From Shewanella oneidensis MR-1 (GTDB lineage: Bacteria > Pseudomonadota > Gammaproteobacteria > Enterobacterales > Shewanellaceae), in contig NC_004347.2 of the NCBI RefSeq assembly GCF_000146165.2, positions 3,162,001-3,226,000 on the forward strand: DNA of 64,000 nucleotides, given 5' to 3'. Each line of letters opens with the position of its first letter. Position 1 is the first letter of the stretch. A model generated the notes under the pieces. The model was not told the origin of the DNA. It was given only the letters and a program-made list of their open reading frames with translations, and did not search any database. A program made the translations under genes and the position numbers. This document shows positions 39,966 to 56,130 of this stretch, piece by piece.

Positions 39966-42755
39966 TTGCAAGCCTCTCAGTCTATTTACAAAAGTCCAAA
40001 CGATCACCGCCAATACCGTTATCTCCAGTTAGATAATGCGCTGCGGGTATTATTGGTGGAAGATTTGGATGCCAGTCAAGCCGCCGCTTCCATGGCGGTT
40101 GCAGTGGGGCATTTTGATGATCCTGCGGATAGACCGGGTATGGCCCATTTTTTAGAGCATATGCTCTTTTTAGGCACCGAAAAATTCCCCGATTCAGGCG
40201 AGTATCACGCCTTTATCAATCAGCATGGTGGCAGCAATAATGCTTGGACAGGCACTGAGCATACCAACTTCTTTTTTACCATCAACGCCGATGTATTTGC
40301 CGACTCCTTAGATAGGTTTAGCCAATTCTTTATCGCGCCCAAATTTGACTTAGAACTAGTAGATAGAGAACGCCAAGCCATTGAATCTGAATTTAGTTTA
40401 AAGCTGAAAGACGATATTCGCCGCACCTATCAAGTACTTAAAGAAACTGTCAACCAACAGCATCCATTCTCAAAATTCTCCGTGGGTAACTTAGTCACTT
40501 TAGGTGGTGAGCAGGCACAGGTTAGAAGTGAATTATTGACGTTTTATCAGACTCACTACAGTGCTAATTTAATGACTCTGTGTTTAGTCGCTCCGATGTC
40601 GTTAGATGCTTTGCAAGCACTTGCAATGCAATATTTCAGCGAGATCCGTAATTTAAACATCGTAAAACAGTACCCGCAGGTGCCGCTGTTTTCTGAAAAT
40701 GAACTACTAAAGCAAATCAATATAGTCCCTCTAAAGGAACAAAAGCGCTTAAGCATCAGTTTTAATTTTCCTGGCATTGACCACTATTACAAACGCAAAC
40801 CGCTCACCTATATTAGCCATATTCTCGGCAATGAGAGTAAAGGCAGCCTGCTGTCGTACCTTAAAGAACAAGGTTTAGTGAATAATTTATCGGCAGGTGG
40901 TGGAGTCAATGGTTATAACTTCAAAGACTATAGTATTGGCCTGCAGCTCACCGACAAAGGCATGAGCAATATTGACGACATTGTTTGTAGCTGTTTTGAG
41001 TACATTGAACTGATTAAAACTCAAGGACTTGAAGACTGGCGCTATTTGGAGCGAGCAAATCTGCTGAAAATGGCATTTCGCTATCAAGAACAAGTCAAAT
41101 CTCTCGATTTGGCCAGCCACTTAAGCATCAATATGCACCACTATGAAGTGGAAGATCTGTTGTTTGGTGATTATCGCATGGATGGCTTAGACGTAGCCGA
41201 AACCCTCGAATTATTGGCACTAATGACACCACAAAACATGCGGTTGCAGCTTATCGCCCAATCAGTGGCAACTGAACGTAAAGCCAGCTGGTATCACACA
41301 CCCTACCAAGTTTTGCCGATAAAGCCTGAGTCCCTCGCCCGCTGGCAAGTCACAGATATTCGCCCTGAACTCCAGTTACCTGCAGCGAATCCCTTCATTG
41401 TGGCTGATTCTATTGCTCGCCCCGATAAAAGCGAAGTTGCCGTCCCAGTCATCGTTGCTGAATCAGCGGGATATCGTATTTGGCATAAAAAAGACGATGA
41501 ATTTAATGTTCCTAAAGGGCATATGTATTTATCACTCGACTCAGAGCAAGCAAGTAAAACACCAAAACATGCCGCCCTCACCCGCTTGTATGTCGAGATG
41601 TTGCTCGATTATCTGACCGAGCCTACTTATCAAGCGGAAGTCGCAGGATTGAGTTATAACATCTATCCACATCAAGGGGGCATAACACTGCATTTATCCG
41701 GTTTTACTGGTAATCAAGAAACGCTATTAGCTTTGCTTATCCATAAAGCAAGAGAACGTAATTTTACCGAAGAACGGTTTGCCTTAATCAAGTCTCAGTT
41801 GCTACGTAGTTGGCAAAATTTGGCTCAAGCTAAGCCAATTTCTCAGCTGTTTACCAGCCTGACGGCAACATTACAAAAGCGCAGTTACGAACCAGCCAGA
41901 ATGGCGCAAGTACTCGAAGATATAACCTTAAATGACCTACACAACCATGTAAGGGCATTTTACGAGAAAATTTATCTTGAAGGGTTAATATACGGGGATT
42001 GGTTAGTCTCAGAGGCACAGGCACTTGGCAAACGTCTGGAACATATTTTATCGCTTGTCTCTAGTCCAAGCGCCGAATCGACCCGAGAATTAATTAATTT
42101 AACCGGACAAGGCACACTTTTAAGAGAACTGGCAATAGATCATCAAGATAGCGCCATTATTGTGTATTACCAATCAGCAACTGCAACGCCAGAAAAAATG
42201 GCGCTTTTTAGCTTACTTAATCACACAATGTCTTCAACCTTCTTCCATGAACTGCGCACGGAAAAACAGTTAGGCTATATGGTTGGCACTGGATATTTGC
42301 CGCTAAATCGACATCCTGGACTCATTTTTTATATTCAATCTCCCACCACAGGACCACTGTCTTTACTGGAAGCAATAGATGAGTTTATTGCTGATTTTAA
42401 CTATGCCGTCATGCAAATCACCAATGAAGAATGGGAAAGTACAAAACAAGGTCTCATCAATCAAGTGATGGAACACGATGCCAACCTTAAAACCCGAGGC
42501 CAGCGTTATTGGGTTAGTGTAGGTAATCGAGATTACCAGTTCAATCAAAGGGAATTGGTAGTCGCCGAAATCAGCAAACTCACTCGCCCTGATTTACTCA
42601 AATTTATGATGCAAAAAATGCGTACTAAGCATAGTGATCGCTTAGTGCTTTTTAGTACAGGTTCAGCTCATACAGCTCAGTCAGCACTCACATCCGATAA
42701 TATGATTACCGACCTTAAAGTGTTTAAACAAAACACTGAGAAGTTTAATTTTTAA
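39966..42755 (+). CDS. M16 family zinc metallopeptidase (insulinase/pitrilysin-like)
   Basis: 929 residues, full length for the four-domain M16A enzymes. The inverted zinc motif is in HFLEHMLFLGTEKFP (HxxEH, about residue 60) with the downstream Glu in ERQAIESEF (about 138). M16A proteases degrade peptides of about 20-60 residues inside a closed chamber. I see no signal peptide, so it is probably cytoplasmic, unlike periplasmic E. coli Ptr. The start is TTG at 39966 with GGAG at 39955-39958; no ATG lies in the right place. Monocistronic; no terminator found downstream. Confidence 0.92.
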   Translation: MQASQSIYKSPNDHRQYRYLQLDNALRVLLVEDLDASQAAASMAVAVGHFDDPADRPGMAHFLEHMLFLGTEKFPDSGEYHAFINQHGGSNNAWTGTEHTNFFFTINADVFADSLDRFSQFFIAPKFDLELVDRERQAIESEFSLKLKDDIRRTYQVLKETVNQQHPFSKFSVGNLVTLGGEQAQVRSELLTFYQTHYSANLMTLCLVAPMSLDALQALAMQYFSEIRNLNIVKQYPQVPLFSENELLKQINIVPLKEQKRLSISFNFPGIDHYYKRKPLTYISHILGNESKGSLLSYLKEQGLVNNLSAGGGVNGYNFKDYSIGLQLTDKGMSNIDDIVCSCFEYIELIKTQGLEDWRYLERANLLKMAFRYQEQVKSLDLASHLSINMHHYEVEDLLFGDYRMDGLDVAETLELLALMTPQNMRLQLIAQSVATERKASWYHTPYQVLPIKPESLARWQVTDIRPELQLPAANPFIVADSIARPDKSEVAVPVIVAESAGYRIWHKKDDEFNVPKGHMYLSLDSEQASKTPKHAALTRLYVEMLLDYLTEPTYQAEVAGLSYNIYPHQGGITLHLSGFTGNQETLLALLIHKARERNFTEERFALIKSQLLRSWQNLAQAKPISQLFTSLTATLQKRSYEPARMAQVLEDITLNDLHNHVRAFYEKIYLEGLIYGDWLVSEAQALGKRLEHILSLVSSPSAESTRELINLTGQGTLLRELAIDHQDSAIIVYYQSATATPEKMALFSLLNHTMSSTFFHELRTEKQLGYMVGTGYLPLNRHPGLIFYIQSPTTGPLSLLEAIDEFIADFNYAVMQITNEEWESTKQGLINQVMEHDANLKTRGQRYWVSVGNRDYQFNQRELVVAEISKLTRPDLLKFMMQKMRTKHSDRLVLFSTGSAHTAQSALTSDNMITDLKVFKQNTEKFNF

Positions 42756-43006: not shown

Positions 43007-46000
43007 ATGGCATCCTCGGACAATACTAAGAACAACACTATGCCGAAAGTACTCTTAAAAATTTTCATCTACAGTTGCCTATGCCTAAGCACCTTGTATC
43101 CATCAGATTCTATTGCAATATATTCTAAGGAGCTCGACTCATCCATAGTTTTGAATTCAAACCTATTTGGAGTTCCGCAAGGTCTTTCACAAGGAACAGT
43201 AACCTCGATTGTTCAAGATAATGATGGATACCTATGGATAGGTACATTTAATGGTCTTAATCGCTTTGATGGAAGCAACTTCAAATATTTTTTCGCTGAT
43301 GGAACAAATTCAGGACTCCCTAGCTCTTTTATTCGAAGTTTACAAATTGATAAGAATGGCATTCTATATGTAGGAACTGACAATGGCCTAGCTGTATATG
43401 ATAAGAACAACGATTCCTTCATTAAATACGGAGCACCACTAGACAACACTCCAATCTGGAGTATAAATACCACTATTGAAACCTTAATTGTTGGCACCAA
43501 CAACGCAATCATTGACATCCATGGAAAAGAGAACCATCTAGACCTATCGTCTAAAGGGATTGGTGAAATAAAAAAATCTATCAAAATTGGTGATGATTAT
43601 TTTTTAAAGGATTACTCCGGAAAATTATTTAAAATAAATCAAGAAAGTTCAATCTTAATAAAAGAAAACATTATCGACATTGAACAAAAAAACAATAAAT
43701 CTCTAATTATATCCACAAAAGATGGACTTTTTGAATATGATGGCGTTTTGATAAATAGAATTGACAACCGTTCTTTTTCACAGCTTGCAAAGAACAATAA
43801 CACCATCTATGGCATCTCTGAAAACTACATTATTGACATCAACAATAAAAAAACGATAGGACTAATTTCAGCATTCAACCCAGATAAAACCACCGTTTTT
43901 TATGCCAACAATAACTTTTTTACACTAGGAAGTGTAGATCAAGGTTTTTTTATCATAAAAAAACAAAATAACTTAGTCAAAAAAACCTCTCTAACAACTA
44001 ATAGCACTTGGCATTTAAGTAAAAACTCTCAAGGTTTTCTAGTTTCATCAGAAGCTGAAAAAATAACCTTATTCAACAATGAATTCAAAAAAATTAGAGA
44101 TTACAACACATATACCACAGGATATAAATATGCATTACTCCATAAAAACCAGCTTTTATATGGAACAAGTAATGGATTGTTTTTGGATAATAGTAATTCT
44201 GTAAAAAAACTTAGCAATGAAACCATATCAGCATTGTCAAGTAATGAAGATGATTCTATTTTATCAGCTGGAACCCCCGATGGTAAAATCTTAATAATAA
44301 AAAACTCAGAAATAATAAAAACTTTTAACACAGAAAGGAAGGAACCTATTTTTGATATTGAAACCATATCAGAAAACTTGTTTTATATAGCCAGTCAGGG
44401 AGGACTTAGAAAGTATGACAACGGTCAGGAAACACTTATAAGCGAGCAACTGACATATAGTATTCAAAAAGATAGAAATTATTTATTATTCGGCACATCA
44501 AAAGCCTTAATGCGTTATGATATAACTAATGAAAAAATAGACACCTTATTCTCAAAAAATAAAGAAATCTACTCAATTGCAAGTGATACCAACTTTATTA
44601 CTGTTTCATCATTAGGAGAGGTAATTATTTTTGATAAGAATAGTAAAACTTCTTATGCGCTGGGAACATCAAATGGGAGTCAATATGAATACAACTCACC
44701 TAGCGCAATAAAAATTAATGATTTTATATTGTTGGCAGGAATTAACGGGGTAAGCTTAGTATCTCCACAAGAAATTTCTGATTATATAAAAAGTCAAAAA
44801 GCAAACAAAACAGAAATATCTAAATTTTCCGTTTTCAACATGAGTCAAGAAAAAAATGGAAAGTATTTAAAAAAACCAATCGATGTAACAAAAGAAATAA
44901 CACTTAAATATTCAGACTATCCATTTTCTTTTGATTTCATATCTCCTATGTCTGATGAATCATCTACTAACTACTACTACAGAATGCTAGGGTTGTCTGA
45001 TACTTGGATTTACTCTAATGGAACAAACTCCGCAACCTATACCAACCTATCTCCTGGCGAATACGTATTTCAGGTTTACACCATAAATAATCTTTCAGGC
45101 GAAAAATCATCTGAGAGAGAAGTTAACGTAATAATTACGCCTCCTTGGTGGTCATCTACTCAAGCCAAAATATTTTATTTTTTAATAACAATGTTTTTGT
45201 CCCTATTTATATTCAAAGCAATTCTTCGTAAAAGAGAAATTCAGCGTCAAATTGCTTTGAGTGAAGAACGACTAAAGCTATCTCTATGGGGCAGCGGTGA
45301 TGAAATGTGGGACTGGGATATAGAAACGGGTAATATTTTCCGCTCGAATATTTGGGGTGCATTAGAGTTCCCACGAGATGGACATCGCTCGGGTAATCGA
45401 GATGAAGAAAGTAATATACATCCCATGGATCAAGAACGCGTTAGAGAAGCACTAAATAAACACTTCTATGGTGAGACAGATCATTTCGAAGCGGCATATA
45501 GAGTTAAAGGCAAAGATGATAGTTGGATATGGATTTTAGATAGGGCTAAAATTGTAGAACGAGATGATAAAGACAACGCTCTACGAATGACTGGCACTAT
45601 TAAAAATATCAGTCAATTTAAACAAAAAGAAGAACAATTAAGACTCTTCGAAAAAGCGATTGAAAATATTTCTGAAGGTATGTTTATTCTTGACAGTGAA
45701 TACCGTTTCGTAGAAGTGAACGAGGCTTGCTGTAGAATATCACAACGAAATAGGTCTGATTTTATTGGCAATTTACTTACCTTTGAATTATATCCTGAAT
45801 CCTTCTCAAATCAGATTCGTACTATGCTGAAACAGCAAGGTCGATGGGCAAGTGAAGTCGAAGCAAATCGAGGCGATAACAGCCATTTTCATATGGAGCT
45901 CACGATTGACGCTATCTACGATGAATTAGGTGAATTGTCGCATTATGTGGGTGTTTTCTCTGATATATCAAGACGTAAACAGCAGGAAGAAGAACTTCGT

Positions 46001-47308
46001 AAACTCACCAACAATGATTTATTGACTGGCCTACCCAACCGGTCAAACCTACAAGTCACATTAGGAAACTTAGTCAATAAAGAAATTAATCATGCATTAA
46101 TGGTACTCGATTTAGATAATTTTAAGCGTATCAATGACTCATTAGGTCACCAAGTTGGTGATAAATTACTAAAACTTGTATCAGTCAGAATTAAATCTTC
46201 TGTACCTAAAAACACCAACATCTATCGTTTAGGAGGAGATGAGTTTGCCATTGTTCTCGATAAAACGTCGGATATTTTAGCCTCCGCCGCTATTGCGGGA
46301 CGAATTGTTGATGCTTTTAACACTGTATATGAAATAGACAATGAACAACTTGTCTTAGGTGTGAGTGTTGGAATTGTACTGTATCCAGATGATGAGCAGA
46401 ATGAGCAAGCCTTACTCAGAAAAGCTGATATTGCCATGTACCATGCAAAATCTGCAGGCGGTAACTGTTACCAATTTTACTCTGAATCACTCAATGAACA
46501 TGCAATTAAACAGCTTGAGACCGAAAATCTTATCCGTGAAGGCTTAAAAGAAGATTTATTTGAAGTTTATTATCAACCCAAAGTCGATCTGAAACATGGT
46601 CATGTTGCTGGAATGGAAGCTTTAGTCAGATTAAATCATCCAACCTTAGGACTTATTCCACCGAATGATTTTATCCCTCTTGCAGAAGAGAATGGTCTGA
46701 TTGTTGAAATAGGTGAAATTGTACTCAGAAAGGCCTGTTTTGCCGCGCAGAAGTGGCGTGAGCAAGGTCTATTTAAGGGCCGAGTCGCCGTCAATTTATC
46801 GTCACGACAATTTGCCCTACCCGATCTACAACAGCGGATAGAGTCAATTTTACGACTCACCCAATTACCTGCCTCTCATTTAGAGCTAGAAATAACTGAA
46901 GGTACTGTTATTAAGCAACCAGAAATGGCTATTACTGTTATGCAGCAATTAGCCAAAATGGGTGTGAGCCTTGCTTTAGATGACTTTGGAACGGGTTATT
47001 CATCGCTTTCTTACTTAAAAAGATTCCCGATTCATACGCTGAAAATCGATAAAGCATTTGTTGACGATATTGATAAATCCGACCGCGATTTAAAAATGGT
47101 CGATTCCATTATTACCATCGCCCACAATATGGGTCTATCCGTCGTTGGTGAGGGAGTTGAGCAAGCTGCACAGCTAAATATCCTTCGAGCCCTAAATTGT
47201 GAAGAAATACAAGGTTACATCTTCAGTAAGGCCATTAATGAAGCAGAGTTTACCCTTTTACTACAGGAGGACCAGGCTAAATCCATCGCGATAAACAACA
47301 CATTGTAA
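43007..47308 (+). CDS. Membrane-bound beta-propeller/PAS/GGDEF/EAL cyclic-di-GMP regulator
   Basis: 1433 residues. Layout: signal sequence (about 12-40), a periplasmic propeller of two-component-regulator-propeller repeats (about 50-620, e.g. DNDGYLWIGTFNGLNRFDG, 19 residues), a Y_Y_Y-type beta domain (about 625-705), a membrane helix (about 715-740), two PAS domains (about 745-1000), GGDEF (about 1005-1165) with intact RLGGDEF near residue 1075, and EAL (about 1185-1425) with intact MEALVRL and DDFGTGYSSLSYL. Both c-di-GMP synthesis and degradation are chemically possible. The sensory half is strikingly AT-rich; the output half is less so. The start is uncertain: the ATG at 43007 and the ATG at 43040 both lack a good ribosome binding site. 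The secreted repeat-protein gene follows after 106 bases. Confidence 0.92.
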   Translation: MASSDNTKNNTMPKVLLKIFIYSCLCLSTLYPSDSIAIYSKELDSSIVLNSNLFGVPQGLSQGTVTSIVQDNDGYLWIGTFNGLNRFDGSNFKYFFADGTNSGLPSSFIRSLQIDKNGILYVGTDNGLAVYDKNNDSFIKYGAPLDNTPIWSINTTIETLIVGTNNAIIDIHGKENHLDLSSKGIGEIKKSIKIGDDYFLKDYSGKLFKINQESSILIKENIIDIEQKNNKSLIISTKDGLFEYDGVLINRIDNRSFSQLAKNNNTIYGISENYIIDINNKKTIGLISAFNPDKTTVFYANNNFFTLGSVDQGFFIIKKQNNLVKKTSLTTNSTWHLSKNSQGFLVSSEAEKITLFNNEFKKIRDYNTYTTGYKYALLHKNQLLYGTSNGLFLDNSNSVKKLSNETISALSSNEDDSILSAGTPDGKILIIKNSEIIKTFNTERKEPIFDIETISENLFYIASQGGLRKYDNGQETLISEQLTYSIQKDRNYLLFGTSKALMRYDITNEKIDTLFSKNKEIYSIASDTNFITVSSLGEVIIFDKNSKTSYALGTSNGSQYEYNSPSAIKINDFILLAGINGVSLVSPQEISDYIKSQKANKTEISKFSVFNMSQEKNGKYLKKPIDVTKEITLKYSDYPFSFDFISPMSDESSTNYYYRMLGLSDTWIYSNGTNSATYTNLSPGEYVFQVYTINNLSGEKSSEREVNVIITPPWWSSTQAKIFYFLITMFLSLFIFKAILRKREIQRQIALSEERLKLSLWGSGDEMWDWDIETGNIFRSNIWGALEFPRDGHRSGNRDEESNIHPMDQERVREALNKHFYGETDHFEAAYRVKGKDDSWIWILDRAKIVERDDKDNALRMTGTIKNISQFKQKEEQLRLFEKAIENISEGMFILDSEYRFVEVNEACCRISQRNRSDFIGNLLTFELYPESFSNQIRTMLKQQGRWASEVEANRGDNSHFHMELTIDAIYDELGELSHYVGVFSDISRRKQQEEELRKLTNNDLLTGLPNRSNLQVTLGNLVNKEINHALMVLDLDNFKRINDSLGHQVGDKLLKLVSVRIKSSVPKNTNIYRLGGDEFAIVLDKTSDILASAAIAGRIVDAFNTVYEIDNEQLVLGVSVGIVLYPDDEQNEQALLRKADIAMYHAKSAGGNCYQFYSESLNEHAIKQLETENLIREGLKEDLFEVYYQPKVDLKHGHVAGMEALVRLNHPTLGLIPPNDFIPLAEENGLIVEIGEIVLRKACFAAQKWREQGLFKGRVAVNLSSRQFALPDLQQRIESILRLTQLPASHLELEITEGTVIKQPEMAITVMQQLAKMGVSLALDDFGTGYSSLSYLKRFPIHTLKIDKAFVDDIDKSDRDLKMVDSIITIAHNMGLSVVGEGVEQAAQLNILRALNCEEIQGYIFSKAINEAEFTLLLQEDQAKSIAINNTL

Positions 47309-47342
47309 TCATTATATTACTCATCAGGGCAACTTGAAACAT

Positions 47343-47358
47343 TGGCACAACATCTGCA
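47343..47358 (+). promoter_or_regulatory. Sigma-54-type promoter of the repeat-protein gene
   Basis: TGGCAC-N5-CTGCA with GG and GC at exact -24/-12 spacing. Predicted transcription starts near 47370, giving a leader of about 45 bases before the ATG at 47415. No ATCA-N10-TGAT operator was seen nearby, so the activator is probably not the one at 10713. Confidence 0.65.
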
Positions 47359-47414
47359 TCAACTGTATCAGTGTCAATAATAAATATTATCAACTACCCT
47401 GAGAGAGAAACATA

Positions 47415-47993
47415 ATGAAAGGAATCCTAACTGCTGTTGCACTAGTGTCATCAATTGGTTTTGTTGTAAATACTAATGCAGTTGAAACAACTCAAAAAAT
47501 TACAACATCCAATCAAGTTGTGACGTCTGAACAAAACACTGTAAGCGAGCAAGAAATTGCAGGTCACCCATATGTGAAGTTCAAGCCGTTTGAAGTCGCC
47601 GGTCACCCGTATGTGAAGTTCAAGCCTTTTGAAGTAGCTGGTCACCCATATGTGAAGTTCAAGCCATTTGAAGTCGCGGGTCACCCATATGTGAAGTTCA
47701 AGCCATTTGAAGTCGCGGGTCACCCATATGTGAAGTTCAAGCCATTTGAAGTCGCGGGTCACCCATATGTGAAGTTCAAGCCATTTGAAGTCGCGGGTCA
47801 CCCATATGTGAAGTTCAAGCCATTTGAAGTCGCGGGTCACCCATATGTGAAGTTCAAGCCTTTTGAAGTAGCTGGTCACCCATATGTGAAGTTCAAGCCT
47901 TTTGAAGTAGCTGGTCACCCATATGTGAAGTTCAAGCCATTTGAAGTCGCGGGTCACCCATATGTGAAATTTGCTAATACAGAAATAGCGTAA
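47415..47993 (+). CDS. Secreted protein of ten identical 13-residue repeats, unknown family
   Basis: 192 residues. Sec signal peptide (about 1-22, ending NTNA), a Thr/Gln/Ser/Glu-rich spacer (23-48), then ten perfect copies of AGHPYVKFKPFEV and an eleventh partial copy ending AGHPYVKF-ANTEIA. There is no Cys, Trp or membrane segment after the signal. Each repeat carries two Lys, one His and one Glu, so the mature protein is basic. Alternating aromatic/hydrophobic and polar residues suggest beta-strand stacking or, alternatively, a multi-copy peptide precursor. The reading frame is supported by the good signal peptide, ribosome binding site (GAGAGAG) and synonymous-only differences between repeats. 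I recognise no homologue. It sits behind a c-di-GMP regulator and a sigma-54-type promoter. Confidence 0.85.
   Translation: MKGILTAVALVSSIGFVVNTNAVETTQKITTSNQVVTSEQNTVSEQEIAGHPYVKFKPFEVAGHPYVKFKPFEVAGHPYVKFKPFEVAGHPYVKFKPFEVAGHPYVKFKPFEVAGHPYVKFKPFEVAGHPYVKFKPFEVAGHPYVKFKPFEVAGHPYVKFKPFEVAGHPYVKFKPFEVAGHPYVKFANTEIA
47559..47990 (+). repeat. 39-bp in-frame tandem repeat array (10 full copies plus a partial one)
   Basis: Period 39 bases. Copies differ only at synonymous third positions and fall into two spellings (GAAGTCGCGGGT and GAAGTAGCTGGT types) arranged in blocks, as expected from recent duplication and gene conversion. Copy number is likely to vary between strains. Confidence 0.95.
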
Positions 47994-48020
47994 TTAAACT
48001 TTAAATTGAGGTAATGCATC

Positions 48021-48137
48021 ATGATGAACTCACTCAAAAAAGCACTTGGTTTCGCAAAACCTGTTCGTAAAAAAGTAAAATTACCAGAAGGCTTAAACCA
48101 TCTTGAAGTAATCCCTGCCAAGGGGTGGTGGAATTAA
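48021..48137 (+). CDS. Small ORF behind the repeat-protein gene, 38 residues, unknown
   Basis: Begins with two Met codons (48021 and 48024) behind GAGG at 48008-48011, 27 bases after the repeat-gene stop and before the shared terminator. The N-terminal half is strongly basic (SLKKALGFAKPVRKKVKLP) and the end reads NHLEVIPAKGWWN. It has no signal peptide or membrane helix. Co-transcription with the secreted repeat protein is likely. It could be a partner, a regulator or a precursor peptide; I do not recognise it, and a non-coding 3' leader cannot be excluded. Confidence 0.55.
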   Translation: MMNSLKKALGFAKPVRKKVKLPEGLNHLEVIPAKGWWN

Positions 48138-48205
48138 TTTATAAGCCATTGGTAAAAGCTCGTATCGCCTAAAATAATCTTACTAGCGCAGCGATATCGC
48201 AGACT

Positions 48206-48242
48206 AAACCAAAGGGAGCTACTGCTCCCTTTGGTTTTTTAC
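48206..48242 (+). terminator. Terminator of the repeat-protein operon
   Basis: 14-bp stem AAACCAAAGGGAGC/GCTCCCTTTGGTTT with a 4-base loop and a T run. It sits 69 bases beyond the small ORF, showing that transcription normally includes it. Confidence 0.92.
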
Positions 48243-48266
48243 AGCTCCTATGACTAACAATCAAAA

Positions 48267-48476
48267 TCAAGCTGCAATGTAGCAGTCATGGCTATGGAGG
48301 CTCCTTCTTAAGGCAATACGTTTGTGGGTGGAAAACAAGGGAAAAGCCATGGGGCCAAGGATAAAACCAAGCACCGTCCAGTATTTTACTGAAAGCCCTG
48401 CCCTAAAAGCCGCATATCCAAAACACCATGCACAGAAAAACGATAGCGCAACCAACATATAAGCAACCAATCCCAC
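48267..48476 (-). CDS. Small membrane protein of unknown function
   Basis: 69 residues. Two hydrophobic segments (about 3-25 and 31-50) separated by a short turn, then a basic Arg/His tail. The GTG start at 48476 has GAGG six bases upstream (AGAGG-TTTGCG-GTG). No family recognised; the WTVLGFILGPMAFPLF segment resembles small integral membrane proteins of many marine gamma-proteobacteria. Convergent with the repeat-protein operon and upstream of fadJ on the same strand. Confidence 0.6.
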   Translation of the reverse strand: MGLVAYMLVALSFFCAWCFGYAAFRAGLSVKYWTVLGFILGPMAFPLFSTHKRIALRRSLHSHDCYIAA

Positions 48477-48646
48477 CGCAAACCTCTTTATTCGCCAAAT
48501 ATAAATACAAAACAGCTAAGCCTATCTGCTTTTTTGTGCAGTCCGAATGCCTCAAGGCGGTAATCTTTCATAAAAGAGATCGAATAATACAAGATATCTA
48601 GACTAGATATGAGTGTTTTTTAGGCAAAAATTAGCCTGAGGGCAAT

Positions 48647-48676
48647 AAAAAAGCGGCATTGAATTGCCGCTTTTTT
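48647..48676 (-). terminator. Terminator of fadIJ
   Basis: 8-bp stem AAGCGGCA/TGCCGCTT with a 6-base loop; T run on the minus strand, 20 bases beyond the fadJ stop. Confidence 0.88.
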
Positions 48677-48695
48677 GACCAAGGATATCTAAGTG

Positions 48696-50819
48696 TTAGA
48701 AGAAGCGAGCTTTTTCTGCCGCCATAGCCTTAAGCCGTTGGCAAGGCTCAAATCGATCGCCATATTGTGTTTGATAACGTTCAAGTATTTTGACTAAGTT
48801 ATCCGCGCCTAAAGTATCGATATAATGGAATGGTCCACCCAAGAATGGTGGGAAGCCGATGCCAAAGATAGCGCCAATATCACCATCGCGCGGCGAGGCA
48901 ATAATGCCTGCATCTAAGCAGCGCACTGCTTCATTCAGCATTTGCACTACACAGCGTTCCGCTACCGCGCTCATTTCTTTATCGACACCAGGCTTGATAC
49001 CTAATACGCCATACACGGTTTCATCCACAGCTTTTTTCTTGCTGGCAGCGCCATACTGATAGAAACCTTTGCCATTTTTACGACCTTTTCTATCGTCGCT
49101 TAATAGCTTGTCGAAGGCTGCTGGTGCTTTAAAGCGTTCACCAAGCTCTTTTTCAAGAATTGGAGAGATCTTAGCGCCCACATCAATACCGACTTCATCG
49201 AGTAAGGTAATTGGGCCAACGGGGAAACCAAACTTCACTAACGCTTTATCGAGATGTTCAACACTTTGCCCTTCTAGCAGCAATTGTGCGGCTTCGTTCA
49301 TATAAAGCGCGAGGATGCGGTTAACATAAAACCCCGCACCGTCTTGTACCACAATTGGCGTTTTACCCTGTTTACGGGCAAAGGCGACTGTGGTGGCAAT
49401 GGTTTCTGGTGAGGTTTTAGCGTGGGCAATCACTTCCACCAGCGGCATTTTTTCTACCGGTGAGAAGTAATGTAAGCCAATCACATTTTCAGGACGGCTT
49501 GCCGCTTGTGCAATTTGACCAATGGGTAACGATGAGGTGTTAGACGCAAAAATCGTGTGCTCACCGCATTCACGCTCAATATCTTTAACCATTTGATGTT
49601 TAAGCGCTAAATCCTCAAATACCGCTTCAACAACAATATCGGCATCCTTAACACCTTTATATTCGGTCGTCGTTGTCATCAGCGCCATTAAATTGTCGCG
49701 AGCGGCTGGCGTCATATGACGACGTTTCACGCCTTTATCCAATAACTTATAGGCGTAAGAAAGCGCGTTGCTTAAGCCCTTTTCGTTAATGTCTTTTACT
49801 CGCGCAGGAATTTTAGCCTTAGTCGTAGTGACAGAGGCAATACCACCTCCCATCAAACCGCCACCTAAGATCACGGCTTTTTTGACTTTACGTGGCGTTG
49901 CACCTTCGGCGCCGGTTTCTTTCTTCATCTCTGTAGTTGCAAAGAAAATACTGCGCAGCGCTTCAGATTCTTTCGACACCACCAGCTCAGCAAAATGGCT
50001 GGCTTCGACTTCCAGTCCCTTCTGCATACCTTTGGCAATACCTTGGCGCACACAATCAATAATCTTTGCTGGCGCTGGGTAGTTACCTTGGGTTTTCTTA
50101 GCAACTTGCTTAGCCGCTTGATCGAAAATAATGTTGCGACCAAAGCCAGTACCTTCAAGCAATTGGTTTACTAGCGATTTTTTAACTGGCTTAGCTATTT
50201 GTTTACCCGCGAGCGCCATCTCCACTGCGGTTTGCAGCAAAATCGTTTGTGGCACCACATCGTTAACTAAGCCCATCTTTAACGCTTGTTTCGGGCGAAT
50301 TTGTTTACCCGTCAACATCATATCCAGCGCAGTGGTAATCCCCACCAAGCGTGGCAAACGCTGGGTACCACCGCCACCGGGTAATAAACCGAGCTGCACT
50401 TCAGGTACGCCCAGCATGGTCTTGCCATCATCACTGCACACACGTTGATGGCAGGCAAGCGCTAGCTCTAAACCGCCGCCCAAGCAAGCACCATGAATTG
50501 CAGCGACCACAGGGATGTTTAATGCTTCCAACTCGTTAAACACCACATGCCCTTGCTGGGATAACGCTTTGGCATCGCCCGCCGTTTGGCAAGCATCGAG
50601 CATAGAGATATCGGCACCGGCAACAAATGAATCTTTTTTGCCCGAAATCAGCACTAGGCCACGGATACTCGAATCGCGTTTAATCTCAGACAGGATCTCA
50701 CTGATCTCAGGGCCAAACTCCGCCTTGAGGGTATTCATGGTTTCGCCAGGTACGTCCATGGTTAAAATGGCGATACCGTCTTCACGGCGAGTTAAATTAA
50801 ATGTTTTTCCCACCGCCAT
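48696..50819 (-). CDS. fadJ: Fatty acid oxidation complex subunit alpha FadJ
   Basis: 707 residues. Enoyl-CoA hydratase/isomerase domain at the N-terminus (about 1-190, oxyanion residues in [12 protein letters not shown] and [15 protein letters not shown]) and 3-hydroxyacyl-CoA dehydrogenase domains (NAD site [15 protein letters not shown], about residue 317; [14 protein letters not shown], about 447). Length and the pairing with fadI identify it as FadJ rather than FadB. Forms a complex with FadI; in E. coli it serves anaerobic and medium-chain beta-oxidation. The ATG overlaps the fadI stop by one base. Confidence 0.96.
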
Positions 50820-52397: not shown

Positions 52398-53354
52398 ATG
52401 CCTTTGAGTCGCTTCCATGCATTACGCACTTACCTAAATAAGGTTGTTTTAGGGCAGCCAGTACTGACCGAAAATCTGCTCATTGCCCTCATCGCCAATG
52501 GCCATTTATTAGTAGAAGGTCCACCAGGACTTGCCAAAACCCGCGCAGTTAAAGCCCTTTGCGACGGAGTTGAAGGCGATTTTCACCGGATCCAATTTAC
52601 CCCCGACCTGTTGCCTGCCGATTTAACGGGCACGGATATCTATCGCTCCCAAACCGGTACCTTTGAATTTGAGGCAGGTCCTATTTTCCATAACCTGATC
52701 CTCGCCGACGAAATCAACCGCGCGCCAGCTAAGGTGCAGTCGGCGTTATTAGAAGCTATGGCTGAAGGTCAAGTGACTGTTGGCAAAAACAGTTATAAAT
52801 TACCGCCGCTATTCCTGGTGATGGCAACACAAAACCCCTTAGAAAACGAAGGCACTTATCCGCTGCCTGAAGCACAGCTCGACCGTTTTTTAATGCACCT
52901 GAATTTGGATTATCCCAGTGGCGACACTGAAATCGAAATTCTGCGTCAATCCCGTAAGGAGGCACTCACTCACGAGTTGCCAACCACTGAGCCGATTGCT
53001 CAGGCGGATATTTTTGCCGCCCGTGATGAAGCAATGGAAATCTATCTGGCTGAGCCGCTAGAGAAATACATAGTCGAAATCATTATGGCAACCCGCCAGC
53101 CAATACGTTACAGCGACGACTTAGCCAAATGGTTAGAGTATGGTGTTAGCCCCCGCGCGACGATTTCGCTTGAACGCTGCGCCCGTGCCAGAGCCTGGTT
53201 ACACCAGCGAGATTTTGTGTCACCGGAAGACATTCAAGCCGTTGCGCCCAATGTACTAAGGCACAGACTGCTGCTGAGTTATCAGGCACAAGCTGAAGGT
53301 GTCAGCCGCGACCAAGTGATCAACCATATTTTGACTCAAGTGGCCGTGCCTTAG
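52398..53354 (+). CDS. MoxR family AAA+ ATPase
   Basis: 318 residues. Walker A is GPPGLAKTRAV (about residue 40) and Walker B LILADEINRAP (about 100), followed by a sensor-1 ATQNPLENEGTYPLPEAQLDRF segment characteristic of MoxR. MoxR ATPases act as chaperones, together with VWA-domain proteins, in assembling or activating protein complexes. First gene of the Bat-like operon that follows; the 113-base gap to the next gene holds a short tandem repeat. Confidence 0.93.
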   Translation: MPLSRFHALRTYLNKVVLGQPVLTENLLIALIANGHLLVEGPPGLAKTRAVKALCDGVEGDFHRIQFTPDLLPADLTGTDIYRSQTGTFEFEAGPIFHNLILADEINRAPAKVQSALLEAMAEGQVTVGKNSYKLPPLFLVMATQNPLENEGTYPLPEAQLDRFLMHLNLDYPSGDTEIEILRQSRKEALTHELPTTEPIAQADIFAARDEAMEIYLAEPLEKYIVEIIMATRQPIRYSDDLAKWLEYGVSPRATISLERCARARAWLHQRDFVSPEDIQAVAPNVLRHRLLLSYQAQAEGVSRDQVINHILTQVAVP

Positions 53355-53410
53355 AGTAGAGCCAAAAATCAGTCCCATAGTCTATGTGCTTCGGTAGCGA
53401 ACAAACTAAC

Positions 53411-53448
53411 GTTAAGTTAAATAAATGGCGTTAAGTTAAATAAATGGC
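53411..53448 (+). repeat. 19-bp direct tandem duplication
   Basis: GTTAAGTTAAATAAATGGC occurs twice without spacer between moxR and the DUF58 gene. Probably a slippage product; it slightly lengthens the leader of the second gene. Confidence 0.9.
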
Positions 53449-53467
53449 TTTAAATGAGTGACTTTGA

Positions 53468-54451
53468 ATGAATGACAGTGCGCTAAACGCATCCCTAAAT
53501 AATGATGTTGTACAACATGGCTTACCTCTTAATGGTTTGCCCTTGTTTGCCGATGGGTTGCATTTAACCGAGAAGGAACTGCTCGCCTGCCAGACGATTG
53601 CGCGGGCCATTCCTGAGCGTCACAGCCGAGCACGCGCCAATCTGGCGGGTCATCGCAGCAGTCTAATCAAGGGCCGTGGCATGGAGTTTGCCGAAGTGCG
53701 CCATTACCAGCAAGGTGACGATGTCCGCACAATTGATTGGCGTGTTACCGCACGCACAGGGCAAACCCACACCAAACTCTTTATCGAAGAGCGCGAGCGC
53801 CCTATTCTGCTGCTGCTCGATTTAAGCCAGAGTCTGTATTTTGGCTCGAGTTTGCTGTTACAGTCAGTTCAAGCTGGGCATCTCGCCACCACGCTTGGTT
53901 GGAATGCTATCAATCACGGCGATAGGCTCGGGGCCTTAATCGCCTGTGAGTCGGAGCATCTTGAATTAAAGCCCCGCAGTCGAAGGCAAGGTATTTTGCA
54001 GCTGATCTCAGGACTATGCCGAGTGCACGAGCAGCAACTCAATCAACTTGGCAGTCATCCGCGCGATCCAGACCATATATTGCGTGCCTGCCAGCGTTTG
54101 CAACGTATCGCTAAGCCCGGCTCATTGATTTGGATTATCACCGATGGCAGCCATTTTACACCGCAATGTATCGCGCCGCTGACAGAGCTCAAGCGCCATT
54201 GCGATATTGGCGCGTATTTGATAACTGACCCTTTAAGGCAAGGTAGCCTGAACTTACCTAAACAGTTCAGTTTACCTGTCCGAGATGCAGAGCAAGACTT
54301 AGTGTTGACTCACCACAGCTATCAGGCATGGCTCGCGCTGCAACACCAGCAGCAGAATGACTTTATCGCCATGATGCAAAAGCTAAGAGTACACACCCAA
54401 TTTATCGATGCAGGCCGCCCCCTTGCAGAGCAATTAGCATTACTGCAATAG
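53468..54451 (+). CDS. DUF58 domain protein
   Basis: 327 residues. The DUF58 signature RGMEFAEVRHYQQGDDVRTIDWRVTARTG spans about residues 75-105, and a degenerate VWA-like strand LLLDLSQSLYFGS follows (about 120). No membrane segment. DUF58 proteins are constant partners of MoxR ATPases and VWA proteins in Bat-type operons; the biochemical role is unknown. Second gene of the operon. Confidence 0.9.
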   Translation: MNDSALNASLNNDVVQHGLPLNGLPLFADGLHLTEKELLACQTIARAIPERHSRARANLAGHRSSLIKGRGMEFAEVRHYQQGDDVRTIDWRVTARTGQTHTKLFIEERERPILLLLDLSQSLYFGSSLLLQSVQAGHLATTLGWNAINHGDRLGALIACESEHLELKPRSRRQGILQLISGLCRVHEQQLNQLGSHPRDPDHILRACQRLQRIAKPGSLIWIITDGSHFTPQCIAPLTELKRHCDIGAYLITDPLRQGSLNLPKQFSLPVRDAEQDLVLTHHSYQAWLALQHQQQNDFIAMMQKLRVHTQFIDAGRPLAEQLALLQ

Positions 54452-54526
54452 CCACATGGCTAAAAGACGATTCAATAAACTATTGAACATAAAAAATGCA
54501 ACATAAAGAATAAGTGAGTCCAAAGC

Positions 54527-55120
54527 GTGAACCCACAAACTTTACCGCCAGCCTCGGATAAGGCTGTAACGCCAAATCCCGCGTTGGCGGATTTACAGGA
54601 TATTATTCTGCCCGACCCCATTGGCGCTTGGCCATGGGCAGTTGGCTATTGGTTGGTACTTGCTATCCTGCTGGTGCTTATCATCGGCGCAATTCTTTGG
54701 CTTAAAAAACGTGCCGCTTACTTAGCGCCGAAAAAAACCGCCCAAGGTTTATTGGCAACTTTAGACCCAAATTCCAGCCATTACCCTTCCGAGGTCAATC
54801 AGCTATTAAAGCGTACCGCGCTGAGTTACTTGCCAAGGGAGGTGATCGCAAAACTTGATGGTGATGCCTGGGCAAGTTGGCTGGATACCCATTTACCCAA
54901 ACAAAATCGTGGCCGCATTGGCCCCTTATTGGATAAACGCCACCAAGCTTCACCGCTTAGCACCGATGAAGCCCGAGAGTTACACAATCTTGCCCAACGT
55001 TGGTTTGCCTCAAAAGCCAAATTTAGCTCACCGCAAGTAAATAGCTCATCGAGCCAAACATCCTTTGCGACAGCGCCATTATCCCAAGCGAGCACCAAGA
55101 CTGCGGAGGAACAATGTTAA
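54527..55120 (+). CDS. DUF4381 membrane protein of the Bat-like operon
   Basis: 197 residues with one membrane helix (about 38-62, WLVLAILLVLIIGAILWL) preceded by the typical LQDIILPDPIGAWPWAVGYW. The rest is cytoplasmic and helical with a Ser-rich tail. Start is GTG at 54527. It lies between the DUF58 and VWA genes, as in other Bat operons, and overlaps the next start by seven bases. Probably anchors or links the MoxR/VWA machinery; inferred from context. Confidence 0.85.
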   Translation: MNPQTLPPASDKAVTPNPALADLQDIILPDPIGAWPWAVGYWLVLAILLVLIIGAILWLKKRAAYLAPKKTAQGLLATLDPNSSHYPSEVNQLLKRTALSYLPREVIAKLDGDAWASWLDTHLPKQNRGRIGPLLDKRHQASPLSTDEARELHNLAQRWFASKAKFSSPQVNSSSSQTSFATAPLSQASTKTAEEQC

Positions 55121-56130
55121 CTGTCGTATGGCCCTTGGCATTGATTTTACTGCCTTTACCTTTAATTTTTTGGCGGCGTCAAACGCTGCACGCCGAAGGT
55201 GGGCGCCTGCAACTGCCCGGTATCAGTCAAACGAGCAAGGCAACCTTAGCCACCCAAACTCGTCAAACCCGTAAACGCTATTGGTTAATGTGGTGCTTGT
55301 TAGTACTTGCTATCGCCCGTCCGCAATGGCTTGGCGATCCAATTGAGCTCCCTAGCCAAGGGCGCGATCTCATGCTGGCGGTGGATTTATCCGGCAGTAT
55401 GCAAATTGAAGATATGGTGATCGACGGCAAAGTGGTCGACCGCTTTACCCTCATCCAACACGTGGTCAGTGAGTTTATTGAACGCCGTAAAGGCGACCGC
55501 ATCGGTTTGATTTTATTCGCCGATCATGCCTATTTACAGGCACCACTCACCCAAGATAGACGTTCCGTGGCCCAGTTTTTAAAGGAGGCCCAAATCGGTC
55601 TCGTCGGCAAACAGACGGCTATCGGCGAGTCGATTGCACTGGCGGTAAAACGCTTCGATAAAATGGATGAAAGTAACAGGGTTTTAGTTCTATTGACCGA
55701 TGGTTCAAATAACGCCGGTAATATCGAGCCACAGCAAGCGGCCCAAATCGCAGCAAACCGCAAAGTAACCATTTATACCGTAGGTGTCGGCGCCGATGTG
55801 ATGGAAAGACGCACCCTCTTTGGTCGTGAACGGGTTAATCCGTCAATGGATCTGGATGAAAACCAACTACAGCAGATTGCCGATGCCACCCACGGCCGCT
55901 ATTTCCGCGCCCGTAATAGTGAGGAGCTAGAACAGATTTATCAAGAAATCGATAAACTTGAACCCGTTAGCCGCGATCAACTCAGTTATCGCCCTCAAGC
56001 GGAACTATTTTACTGGCCGCTCGCGTTGGCACTGCTCACCAGTCTCTGGATTGCACTAAGCCAGTTACCGTTTTTTACTCGCGCTAAAAACCTTGTTTTA
56101 TCAGCCACACCGCGGGGGAATGTCCGTTAA
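55114..56130 (+). CDS. VWA-domain membrane protein, BatA-like
   Basis: 338 residues. Membrane helices at both ends (about 1-18, 50-68 and 300-318) enclose a von Willebrand A domain with an intact MIDAS: DLSGSMQ (about residue 90) and later LLTDGSNNAGN (about 190). A GGAG ribosome binding site lies seven bases before the ATG. It is expected to display the VWA domain to the periplasm and work with the second VWA protein encoded next. Confidence 0.92.
   Translation: MLTVVWPLALILLPLPLIFWRRQTLHAEGGRLQLPGISQTSKATLATQTRQTRKRYWLMWCLLVLAIARPQWLGDPIELPSQGRDLMLAVDLSGSMQIEDMVIDGKVVDRFTLIQHVVSEFIERRKGDRIGLILFADHAYLQAPLTQDRRSVAQFLKEAQIGLVGKQTAIGESIALAVKRFDKMDESNRVLVLLTDGSNNAGNIEPQQAAQIAANRKVTIYTVGVGADVMERRTLFGRERVNPSMDLDENQLQQIADATHGRYFRARNSEELEQIYQEIDKLEPVSRDQLSYRPQAELFYWPLALALLTSLWIALSQLPFFTRAKNLVLSATPRGNVR

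Follow-up and report, generated by a model that had tools for sequence, protein, structure and literature searches.

What is a secreted protein made of identical 13-residue repeats for, and is the cyclic-di-GMP (c-di-GMP) gene beside it more than a neighbour? These questions are raised by a locus of Shewanella oneidensis MR-1 that lies in the stretch of 64,000 nucleotides analysed here (the window), taken from a genome of 5,131,424 bases in 2 contigs. The original prediction allowed two readings of the repeat gene, a stacked beta fibre or matrix protein and a multi-copy precursor cut into identical peptides, and took the c-di-GMP gene as a hint of a biofilm role. Having compared the sequences of related loci, we consider a pherotype-like peptide-receptor system with c-di-GMP output to be the best reading, and a probable one.

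The repeat gene and its surroundings

The repeat gene (47415..47993, forward strand) encodes a putative secreted multi-copy peptide precursor of 192 aa, as judged from the sequence, the translation of its open reading frame (ORF) and Tandem Repeats Finder. On inspection of the translation, the first 22 residues resemble a Sec signal peptide with TNA at the end (MKGILTAVALVSSIGFVVNTNA, 47415..47480, forward strand), and residues 23-48 are a spacer rich in Thr, Glu and Gln. The array itself (47559..47972, forward strand) comprises ten AGHPYVKF-KPFEV units and a partial eleventh that contains only the core: the ten identical AGHPYVKFKPFEV units, 13 residues each, span 47559-47948, the partial unit AGHPYVKF covers 47949-47972, and the protein ends with ANTEIA. 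The DNA of the ten units differs at synonymous sites only, and the protein is thus as originally described, from its signal-peptide-like start and spacer to its last, incomplete unit. Tandem Repeats Finder reports 47562-47968 with period 39, 10.4 copies, 96% matches and a score of 730, the highest of its six rows for the window. In three relatives (L044, L104 and L116) an AxA signal-peptide site directly adjoins the first unit. The precursor has no match in NCBIfam or PHROGs, and Rfam gave nothing at gathering scores in 47200-48700. The whole precursor does score 36 bits against the Pfam family EPTP (cut-off 21), an identity that we reject as an artefact of small fragments summed over the repeats, since no single stretch passes alone.

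A search for the repeat in relatives had been proposed, and it was fruitful. Of 60 genomes searched with the precursor protein, 33 gave a match, one of them being the window's own; all 33 belong to the genus. Arrays were detected by our script in 114 of the 115 loci parsed; a chance origin of the array is thus excluded. A better anchor than the precursor is a conserved ORF of 38 aa (MMNSLKKALGF...PAKGWWN; 48021..48137, forward strand) that begins 27 bp past the precursor stop and was found in 118 of 129 genus genomes. Of 394 genomes of the order, 36 have it at E<=1e-4, including six that do not belong to the genus, and in the class the one hit among 369 genomes at E<=1e-5 is the window's own. 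The named contigs that match this ORF number 65: Shewanella stands in the title of 61, and the other four are titled Paraferrimonas, Parashewanella (two) and Ferrimonas. The parsed set consists of 115 loci from 113 genomes (the window and L031-L144), five of the 118 positive genomes having been left out because the match lies at a contig start. Beyond this set, the module is present in contigs of Paraferrimonas haliotis (L202), Parashewanella curva (L207) and Ferrimonas marina (L208), in Shewanella sp. OPT22 and Parashewanella hymeniacidonis (L203 and L204), whose arrays are nearly identical, and in genomes of other families (L212-L215 and L217), although the search of the order found no match to the 38-aa ORF in the genome of L217.

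Across species, the unit consists of a 7-residue core (GHPYVKF in the window) and a looser linker; it is near-uniform within a genome and differs between species, with 71 distinct dominant cores among 114 loci. In these loci core position 5 is I, V or L, position 6 is K or R, and position 7 is F, V, L, Y, W, H or I, a constancy that is partly built in, because the search motif demands P at position 3 and K or R at position 6 and restricts positions 5 and 7. In order to lessen this bias, pN/pS was computed on a 13-residue lattice that takes in all units between matching cores, whether or not they match themselves (the anchors do), which gave 1124 units in 96 arrays. The core has pN 0.0096, pS 0.33 and pN/pS 0.029, the linker pN 0.0498, pS 0.28 and pN/pS 0.179, and core positions 1, 2 and 4, which are free in the motif, have pN/pS 0.039; array by array, pN is lower in the core than in the linker in 80, higher in 4 and equal in 12. 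Since pN/pS is this low at a pS of about 0.33, the copies are not merely fresh duplicates and the core is held by selection, which bears out the earlier view that selection keeps the peptide constant. The residue before the core agrees with the array consensus (A in nearly all arrays) in 1065 of the 1124 units, and 99 of 101 precursor proteins have A as their last residue.

The arrays vary in other respects. Copy number ranges from 2 to 34 (101 loci with a receptor end and the 38-aa ORF, incomplete arrays counted), and the dominant period is 13 aa in 104 loci and 9, 14, 15 or 17 in the other ten, with units of nine residues in L132 and L135. Linker length can vary even within one array (L141, L097 and L040); in L141, 5- and 3-residue linkers mostly alternate round a constant AGVPNIRY, giving a mixed 11/13 period. 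The one parsed locus in which the script found no array, L113, has a single unit, GIPWVKC, which may be due to array collapse in a short-read assembly, and a single-copy relative, L216, encodes a short secreted-looking protein with the end SRIPIVIF behind the same sigma54-type element that precedes the window's precursor. The proteins of L212-L215 and L217 end with their last core, which thus forms a free C-terminus. Arrays broken by frameshifts had been named as a case that would speak against the original prediction; such a break occurs in L125, the sole locus where we saw one, after four intact units and with the rest of the locus present. The repeat gene at the corresponding place in L217, which belongs to another family, has an 18-residue period unit, ATRRGMIRISNELDTQES, with the core end MIRI, and is followed by a short ORF ending KGW.

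Taken together, the varied period, the varied linkers and the single-copy forms favour a peptide precursor over a fixed-period fibre. Thus, of the two readings first offered, the multi-copy precursor is the one that we favour. A structural beta-stack, amyloid or matrix fibre, whose assembly the neighbouring sensor might monitor or with which it might diverge by hitch-hiking, would be helped by the alternating P-x-[VI]-K-F, which could form strands, and by the frequent placement of matrix genes under c-di-GMP control; a low-confidence structure model of the repeat protein, made without an alignment, also contains strands only, and at a pLDDT of 48.6 it proves nothing for or against a fibre. However, the period ranges over 9-17 aa between species and is mixed in L141, and single-copy versions exist, so that the fixed period and the several repeats which a beta-solenoid, amyloid or fibre needs were not found; we regard a fibre as very unlikely. 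CsgA and FapC are bacterial functional amyloid subunits with repeats, and they share with the present protein short repeats, secretion and a c-di-GMP context, but here the repeat length is variable, single-copy versions exist, and no secretion machinery is present among the flanking genes checked.

Whether the precursor is cut is a separate matter. Tandem identical peptides separated by less constrained spacers, as found here, are what defines a multi-copy precursor, and we rather lean towards cleavage into short peptides on the pattern of the arrays. Alternatively, the uncut repeat protein might itself be a multivalent ligand in the periplasm or on the surface, with the propeller of the adjoining receptor binding cores within the chain and reporting envelope state or contact with kin. 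The often high copy number suits this alternative, as does the fact that no dedicated protease was recognised in the locus; the single-copy forms L113 and L216, the freely varying copy number with drifting linkers, and the free C-terminal last core of L212-L215 and L217 weigh against it, and we hold it to be unlikely, though still worth serious consideration.

The gene order, read in the window and 34 relatives as far as their contigs extend, is M16 peptidase, receptor, precursor, 38-aa ORF, a fatty-acid oxidation pair on the opposite strand and a MoxR ATPase, and the Pfam assignments of the window's flanking genes are M16, receptor, fatty-acid oxidation pair and MoxR ATPase. In L035 (G005) and L044 (G030) fadJ is located elsewhere. 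The M16 peptidase (39966..42755, forward strand), which the original prediction suspected of being there by chance, is on Pfam and its position in relatives probably outside the system: in G001, G043, G044 and G055 the distance from M16 to fadJ is 0.4-0.7 kb, which leaves no room for the module, so that M16 is most simply a flanking gene of an insertion or loss, and we dropped it as the default maturation protease. Pfam also found no modifying enzyme beside the precursor among these flanking genes, and such an enzyme is the mark of a RiPP. Further along the window, the minus strand at 48267-48476 carries a 69-aa ORF that looks membrane-like by eye, has tblastn matches in 27 of 34 loci and no Pfam match, and at 52398-56130 the MoxR ATPase (Pfam) is followed by ORFs resembling DUF58 and von Willebrand-type proteins.

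Between receptor and precursor lies a sigma54-type -24/-12 element, TTGGCACAACATCTGCA (47342..47358, forward strand), identified by its sequence and by a strict pattern across loci: of the 105 loci that have a receptor match, 104 carry TGGCA[CT]-N6-TGC after the receptor gene, compared with 108 of 3640 random 480-nt windows of the fetched loci, some of which contain a true sigma54-type site. The lone miss, L144, has a variant element, and with a looser scan 101 of 104 loci agree with the consensus at 10 or more of its 13 positions. The 38-aa ORF has a mean column identity of 74% (12 chosen rows), is tandemly duplicated in 14 of the 115 parsed loci and has no match in Pfam, NCBIfam or PHROG; since its conservation contrasts with the precursor, its product may touch a constant part of the system. 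It is followed by a terminator-like hairpin with a T tail (48206..48240, forward strand; fold -25.8 kcal/mol, z -6.27), which a consensus terminator scan does not list, we suppose because the stem absorbs three T.

Joint divergence of core and putative receptor ectodomain

The gene upstream of the precursor (43007..47308, forward strand) encodes a putative receptor of 1433 aa, with a periplasmic double beta-propeller plus Y_Y_Y domain, one transmembrane helix and the domains PAS-PAS-GGDEF-EAL. Pfam recognises Reg_prop, Y_Y_Y, PAS, GGDEF and EAL in it, and the GGDEF and EAL signature residues are present in the translation by eye. An AlphaFold2 model of the ectodomain (42 sequences) has a mean pLDDT of 89.5 and a pTM of 0.82, and its best match in the PDB is the periplasmic domain of BT4663 (4a2l, TM 0.74-0.76), together with relatives. 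Pfam, model and PDB match thus agree on an ectodomain of HTCS type, with two propellers and Y_Y_Y as in the Bacteroides hybrid two-component sensors (BT4663; PDB 4a2l and 4a2m). Known ligand sensors of the periplasm have this fold, which speaks for a receptor role. Unlike those sensors, the present protein has, according to Pfam, a PAS-GGDEF-EAL output in place of a histidine kinase and response regulator (receiver). A peptide ligand, as proposed below, would be a departure too, because 4a2l is titled as a heparin/heparan sulphate sensor.

A receptor match stands just upstream of the precursor in 105 of the 115 parsed loci. Nine of the ten without one are at a contig edge and the tenth is L142, where the nine-copy array is intact and the 38-aa ORF present, with no receptor in 7.5 kb upstream; the genes that do lie upstream of L142 are others, and by eye two resemble transposases. 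L065, L107 and L111 have a broken receptor frame, due to mutation or sequencing error, and in these three loci and L142 a signal could be made but not heard, or the loci could be decaying. In L210 and L211, two loci of another family, the place between receptor and 38-aa ORF is taken by nothing more than a short ORF of about 40-45 aa, which looks secreted, has no clear core and in L210 lies behind a sigma54-like element; these are possibly single-peptide or degenerate versions as far as their sequences tell. In L218, again of another family, a shorter GGDEF-EAL protein (783 aa open frame) lies between M16 and fadJ, and a repeat gene is not listed there; this is possibly a joint loss of ectodomain and ligand.

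Among close relatives, the cytoplasmic half of the receptor is 95-100% identical, while the ectodomain falls as low as 28%. Between the window and L038 or L055, for instance, identity is 97% in PAS, 98% in EAL and 89% in GGDEF, as opposed to 29-36% in the propeller. The block that co-varies with the core comprises residues 26-711 (43082..45139, forward strand), and divergence drops sharply soon after it. For the comparison of core and ectodomain, which was made between species only, 98 loci were used; the 17 left out of the 115 are the ten without a receptor match, six without a complete receptor frame, and L113, which has no assigned core. When the cytoplasmic halves are at least 0.98 identical, the median ectodomain identity is 0.88 for pairs with the same core (n=12) and 0.435 for pairs with different cores (n=32), with an AUC of 0.971; at a cut of 0.95 the medians are 0.76 (22 pairs) and 0.44 (117), and at 0.90 they are 0.68 (38) and 0.45 (420). 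Using 35 disjoint pairs, we obtained 0.90 for the same core (n=8) and 0.45 for different cores (n=27; p=4e-6). When cores were permuted within clusters of close relatives, none of 2000 permutations reached the observed correlation, and a partial Mantel test over all 4753 pairs gave a modest r of 0.21, reached by none of 1000 permutations.

Linker identity tracks the ectodomain as well, though less than the core does: in a regression over 458 close pairs the standardised betas are 0.46 for the core, 0.25 for the linker, 0.16 for cytoplasmic identity and 0.11 for the signal peptide, and the median ectodomain identity is 0.58 for pairs with the same core and a different linker (19 pairs), against 0.46 for the same linker and a different core (56). 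Nearest neighbours by ectodomain and by cytoplasmic half disagree in 73 of the 98 loci, and there the closer core is found in the ectodomain neighbour 54 times and in the cytoplasmic neighbour 6 times, with 13 ties. Core changes over six positions take 123 steps on the ectodomain tree and 162 on the cytoplasmic tree, compared with a mean of 238 on either tree for shuffled core labels; if the whole core is treated as one label the difference is small (67 and 73 steps). There is one real partial exception, L040/L078, with an ectodomain identity of 0.73 although the cores differ at three of seven positions; L106/L108, which also looked like one, arises from the labelling, because each of the two arrays contains a mixture of two cores.

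Given that ectodomain and array both evolve fast between conserved flanks, one may ask whether they are surface antigens diversified by phage or predators, each independently fast and associated through shared ancestry. This we judge to be extremely improbable, since the ectodomain of a receptor is expected in the periplasm, the core follows the ectodomain over the cytoplasmic domain (the 54 versus 6 above), and the within-cluster permutations never reached the observed value. The co-variation fits an uncut multivalent ligand equally well as a released peptide, and in either case the upstream protein is likely to be the receptor for the peptide, given the pattern of sequence divergence. The c-di-GMP gene, which had been read as a hint of a biofilm role through its mere vicinity, is therefore likely a receptor and not just a neighbour, because its ectodomain co-varies with the peptide.

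The same relation can be seen at the DNA level in four mosaic pairs (L066/L038, L117/L044, L133/L132 and L077/L041), in which there are two dips in similarity, one in the ectodomain and one in the array, with conservation elsewhere. Before the receptor, similarity is 0.84-0.99 in M16 where covered, with some lower intergenic bins (L077 is uncovered there); it goes down to roughly 0.43-0.76 across the ectodomain, recovers in the cytoplasmic half, dips again in the array and recovers downstream. For L066/L038 the values are 0.93-0.99 upstream, 0.48-0.64 in the ectodomain, 0.83-0.98 in the cytoplasmic half, 0.57-0.70 in the array and 0.96-0.97 downstream, and L077/L041, in the part covered, is at 0.97-0.99 everywhere but in ectodomain and array. 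In protein profiles the switch in similarity lies near the membrane segment of the receptor. What changes jointly is therefore a pair of segments separated by about 2.4 kb, with a conserved stretch in between, and hitch-hiking with a fibre gene would leave this conserved cytoplasmic half between two variable segments unexplained.

Residue 484 of the putative receptor and core residue 2

A scan of residue size against core residue 2 over 705 variable columns (548 in the ectodomain and 157 in the cytoplasmic part) of 78 non-redundant receptors gave one column that stands alone, that of Tyr484 (codon 44456..44458, forward strand), a candidate contact by size complementarity. Its size is inversely related to that of core residue 2 (Spearman -0.73), with -0.49 for the next column and -0.42 for the lowest cytoplasmic one, and none of 100 family-wise permutations over ectodomain columns reached this value. 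When core residue 2 is F or Y, residue 484 is mostly small (T, A, S or G, with I and V once each); when it is H, S, A, T or G, residue 484 is Y or F, and for V and I the picture is mixed. Among the 14 disjoint pairs where both residues change, their sizes move in opposite directions in 13, although by such sign contrasts three other ectodomain columns have a larger net count and four an equal one. Over 43 pairs, conservation of residue 484 depends only weakly on core residue 2: the receptor residue is unchanged in 11 of the 16 that share core residue 2 and in 13 of the 27 that do not. The Tyr484 relation is a further point that hitch-hiking with a fibre leaves unexplained.

As a held-out check, alignments of loci outside the 98 that cover the site were read by eye. 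The rule fits L065 (H in the core, Tyr in the receptor), L202 (L, Thr) and L203/L204 (Y, Ser), and also L207 (T, His), where His is large but new; L113 (I, Thr) is neutral, and L208 (V, Thr) lies outside the observed set and does not fit. L214, L215 and L216 are too gapped at the site, and the other held-out loci stop short of it. In size scans for core positions 1 and 4, cytoplasmic columns match ectodomain columns, and for position 7 the best ectodomain column (-0.64) is slightly beyond the best cytoplasmic one (-0.58). The top single pair of a mutual-information scan was receptor residue 426 with core position 6 (z 8.7), for which we make no claim, as it rests on 11 R-type loci and has no simple chemistry; in the same scan cytoplasmic columns lead for core positions 4, 5 and 7, which we read as shared ancestry.

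A possible pherotype system with c-di-GMP output

On these comparisons, the core is very probably the ligand of the adjoining receptor, and the whole may work as follows. A sigma54-type promoter would drive the precursor and the 38-aa protein, perhaps as a feedback loop, and Sec would export the precursor with its about eleven copies of the core GHPYVKF (mass ~0.85 kDa by hand calculation). In the periplasm the cores would then become exposed or be freed, the latter probably through proteolysis within the linkers, and they might get as far as other cells; the propeller ectodomain of the adjoining receptor would bind its own core, and the signal would pass through PAS to GGDEF and EAL, so that c-di-GMP is changed. 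Peptide and ectodomain would have diversified together into many pherotypes with the cytoplasmic half constant, which is what one expects of a self-recognition signal. Among these steps it is the ligand-receptor relation that has support here, whereas cleavage, exit of the peptide, binding, mutual specificity, the sign of the c-di-GMP change and feedback are what we infer. Against a pherotype, Sec reaches the periplasm only, and in the locus we recognised neither a dedicated exporter nor a dedicated protease; we incline, if only slightly, to a peptide that acts between cells rather than within the periplasm only.

Peptide pheromones with matching receptor polymorphism are known as a Gram-positive theme, with CSP-ComD in Streptococcus, ComX-ComP in Bacillus and AgrD-AgrC in Staphylococcus as pheromone/receptor pherotypes. 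The case of S. pneumoniae is the subject of PMC2751782. As in those systems, a short-peptide gene is linked here to a membrane-receptor gene, and peptide and sensing domain are polymorphic together while the output domain is conserved. The present locus differs in being Gram-negative, in its sensor, where a propeller is joined to GGDEF-EAL and not to a histidine kinase, in the many tandem copies per precursor and the sigma54-type promoter element, and in that the flanking genes checked include no dedicated ABC exporter and no modification enzyme. Yeast alpha-factor is likewise made from a multi-copy peptide precursor, with a signal peptide, a pro-spacer and tandem identical peptides with looser spacers between them; in contrast to it, the window's units have no Kex2-type dibasic sites, and the present arrays are bacterial, near-uniform per genome and different between species. 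In the open-licence literature we found no account of the precursor, nor of any peptide that a receptor of this kind would bind; PMC13220807 names S. baltica among AHL producers, and a passage of PMC4168976 has no demonstrable link to the genes of this locus.

The fuller proposal is that of a Gram-negative pherotype system: a linear peptide, produced as tandem copies in one precursor, would act directly on a c-di-GMP enzyme by way of a propeller receptor, the genus would maintain dozens of specific types, and kin would thereby be told from non-kin in the choice to settle or swim. It has in our view an even chance of being right. If it is true, a widely used laboratory genus has a peptide pheromone system wired straight to c-di-GMP. 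Relatives that differ at the locus mainly in ligand and ectodomain would then be a natural experiment on joint specificity switching, and the HTCS-type propeller fold would gain a candidate peptide ligand together with a candidate contact residue.
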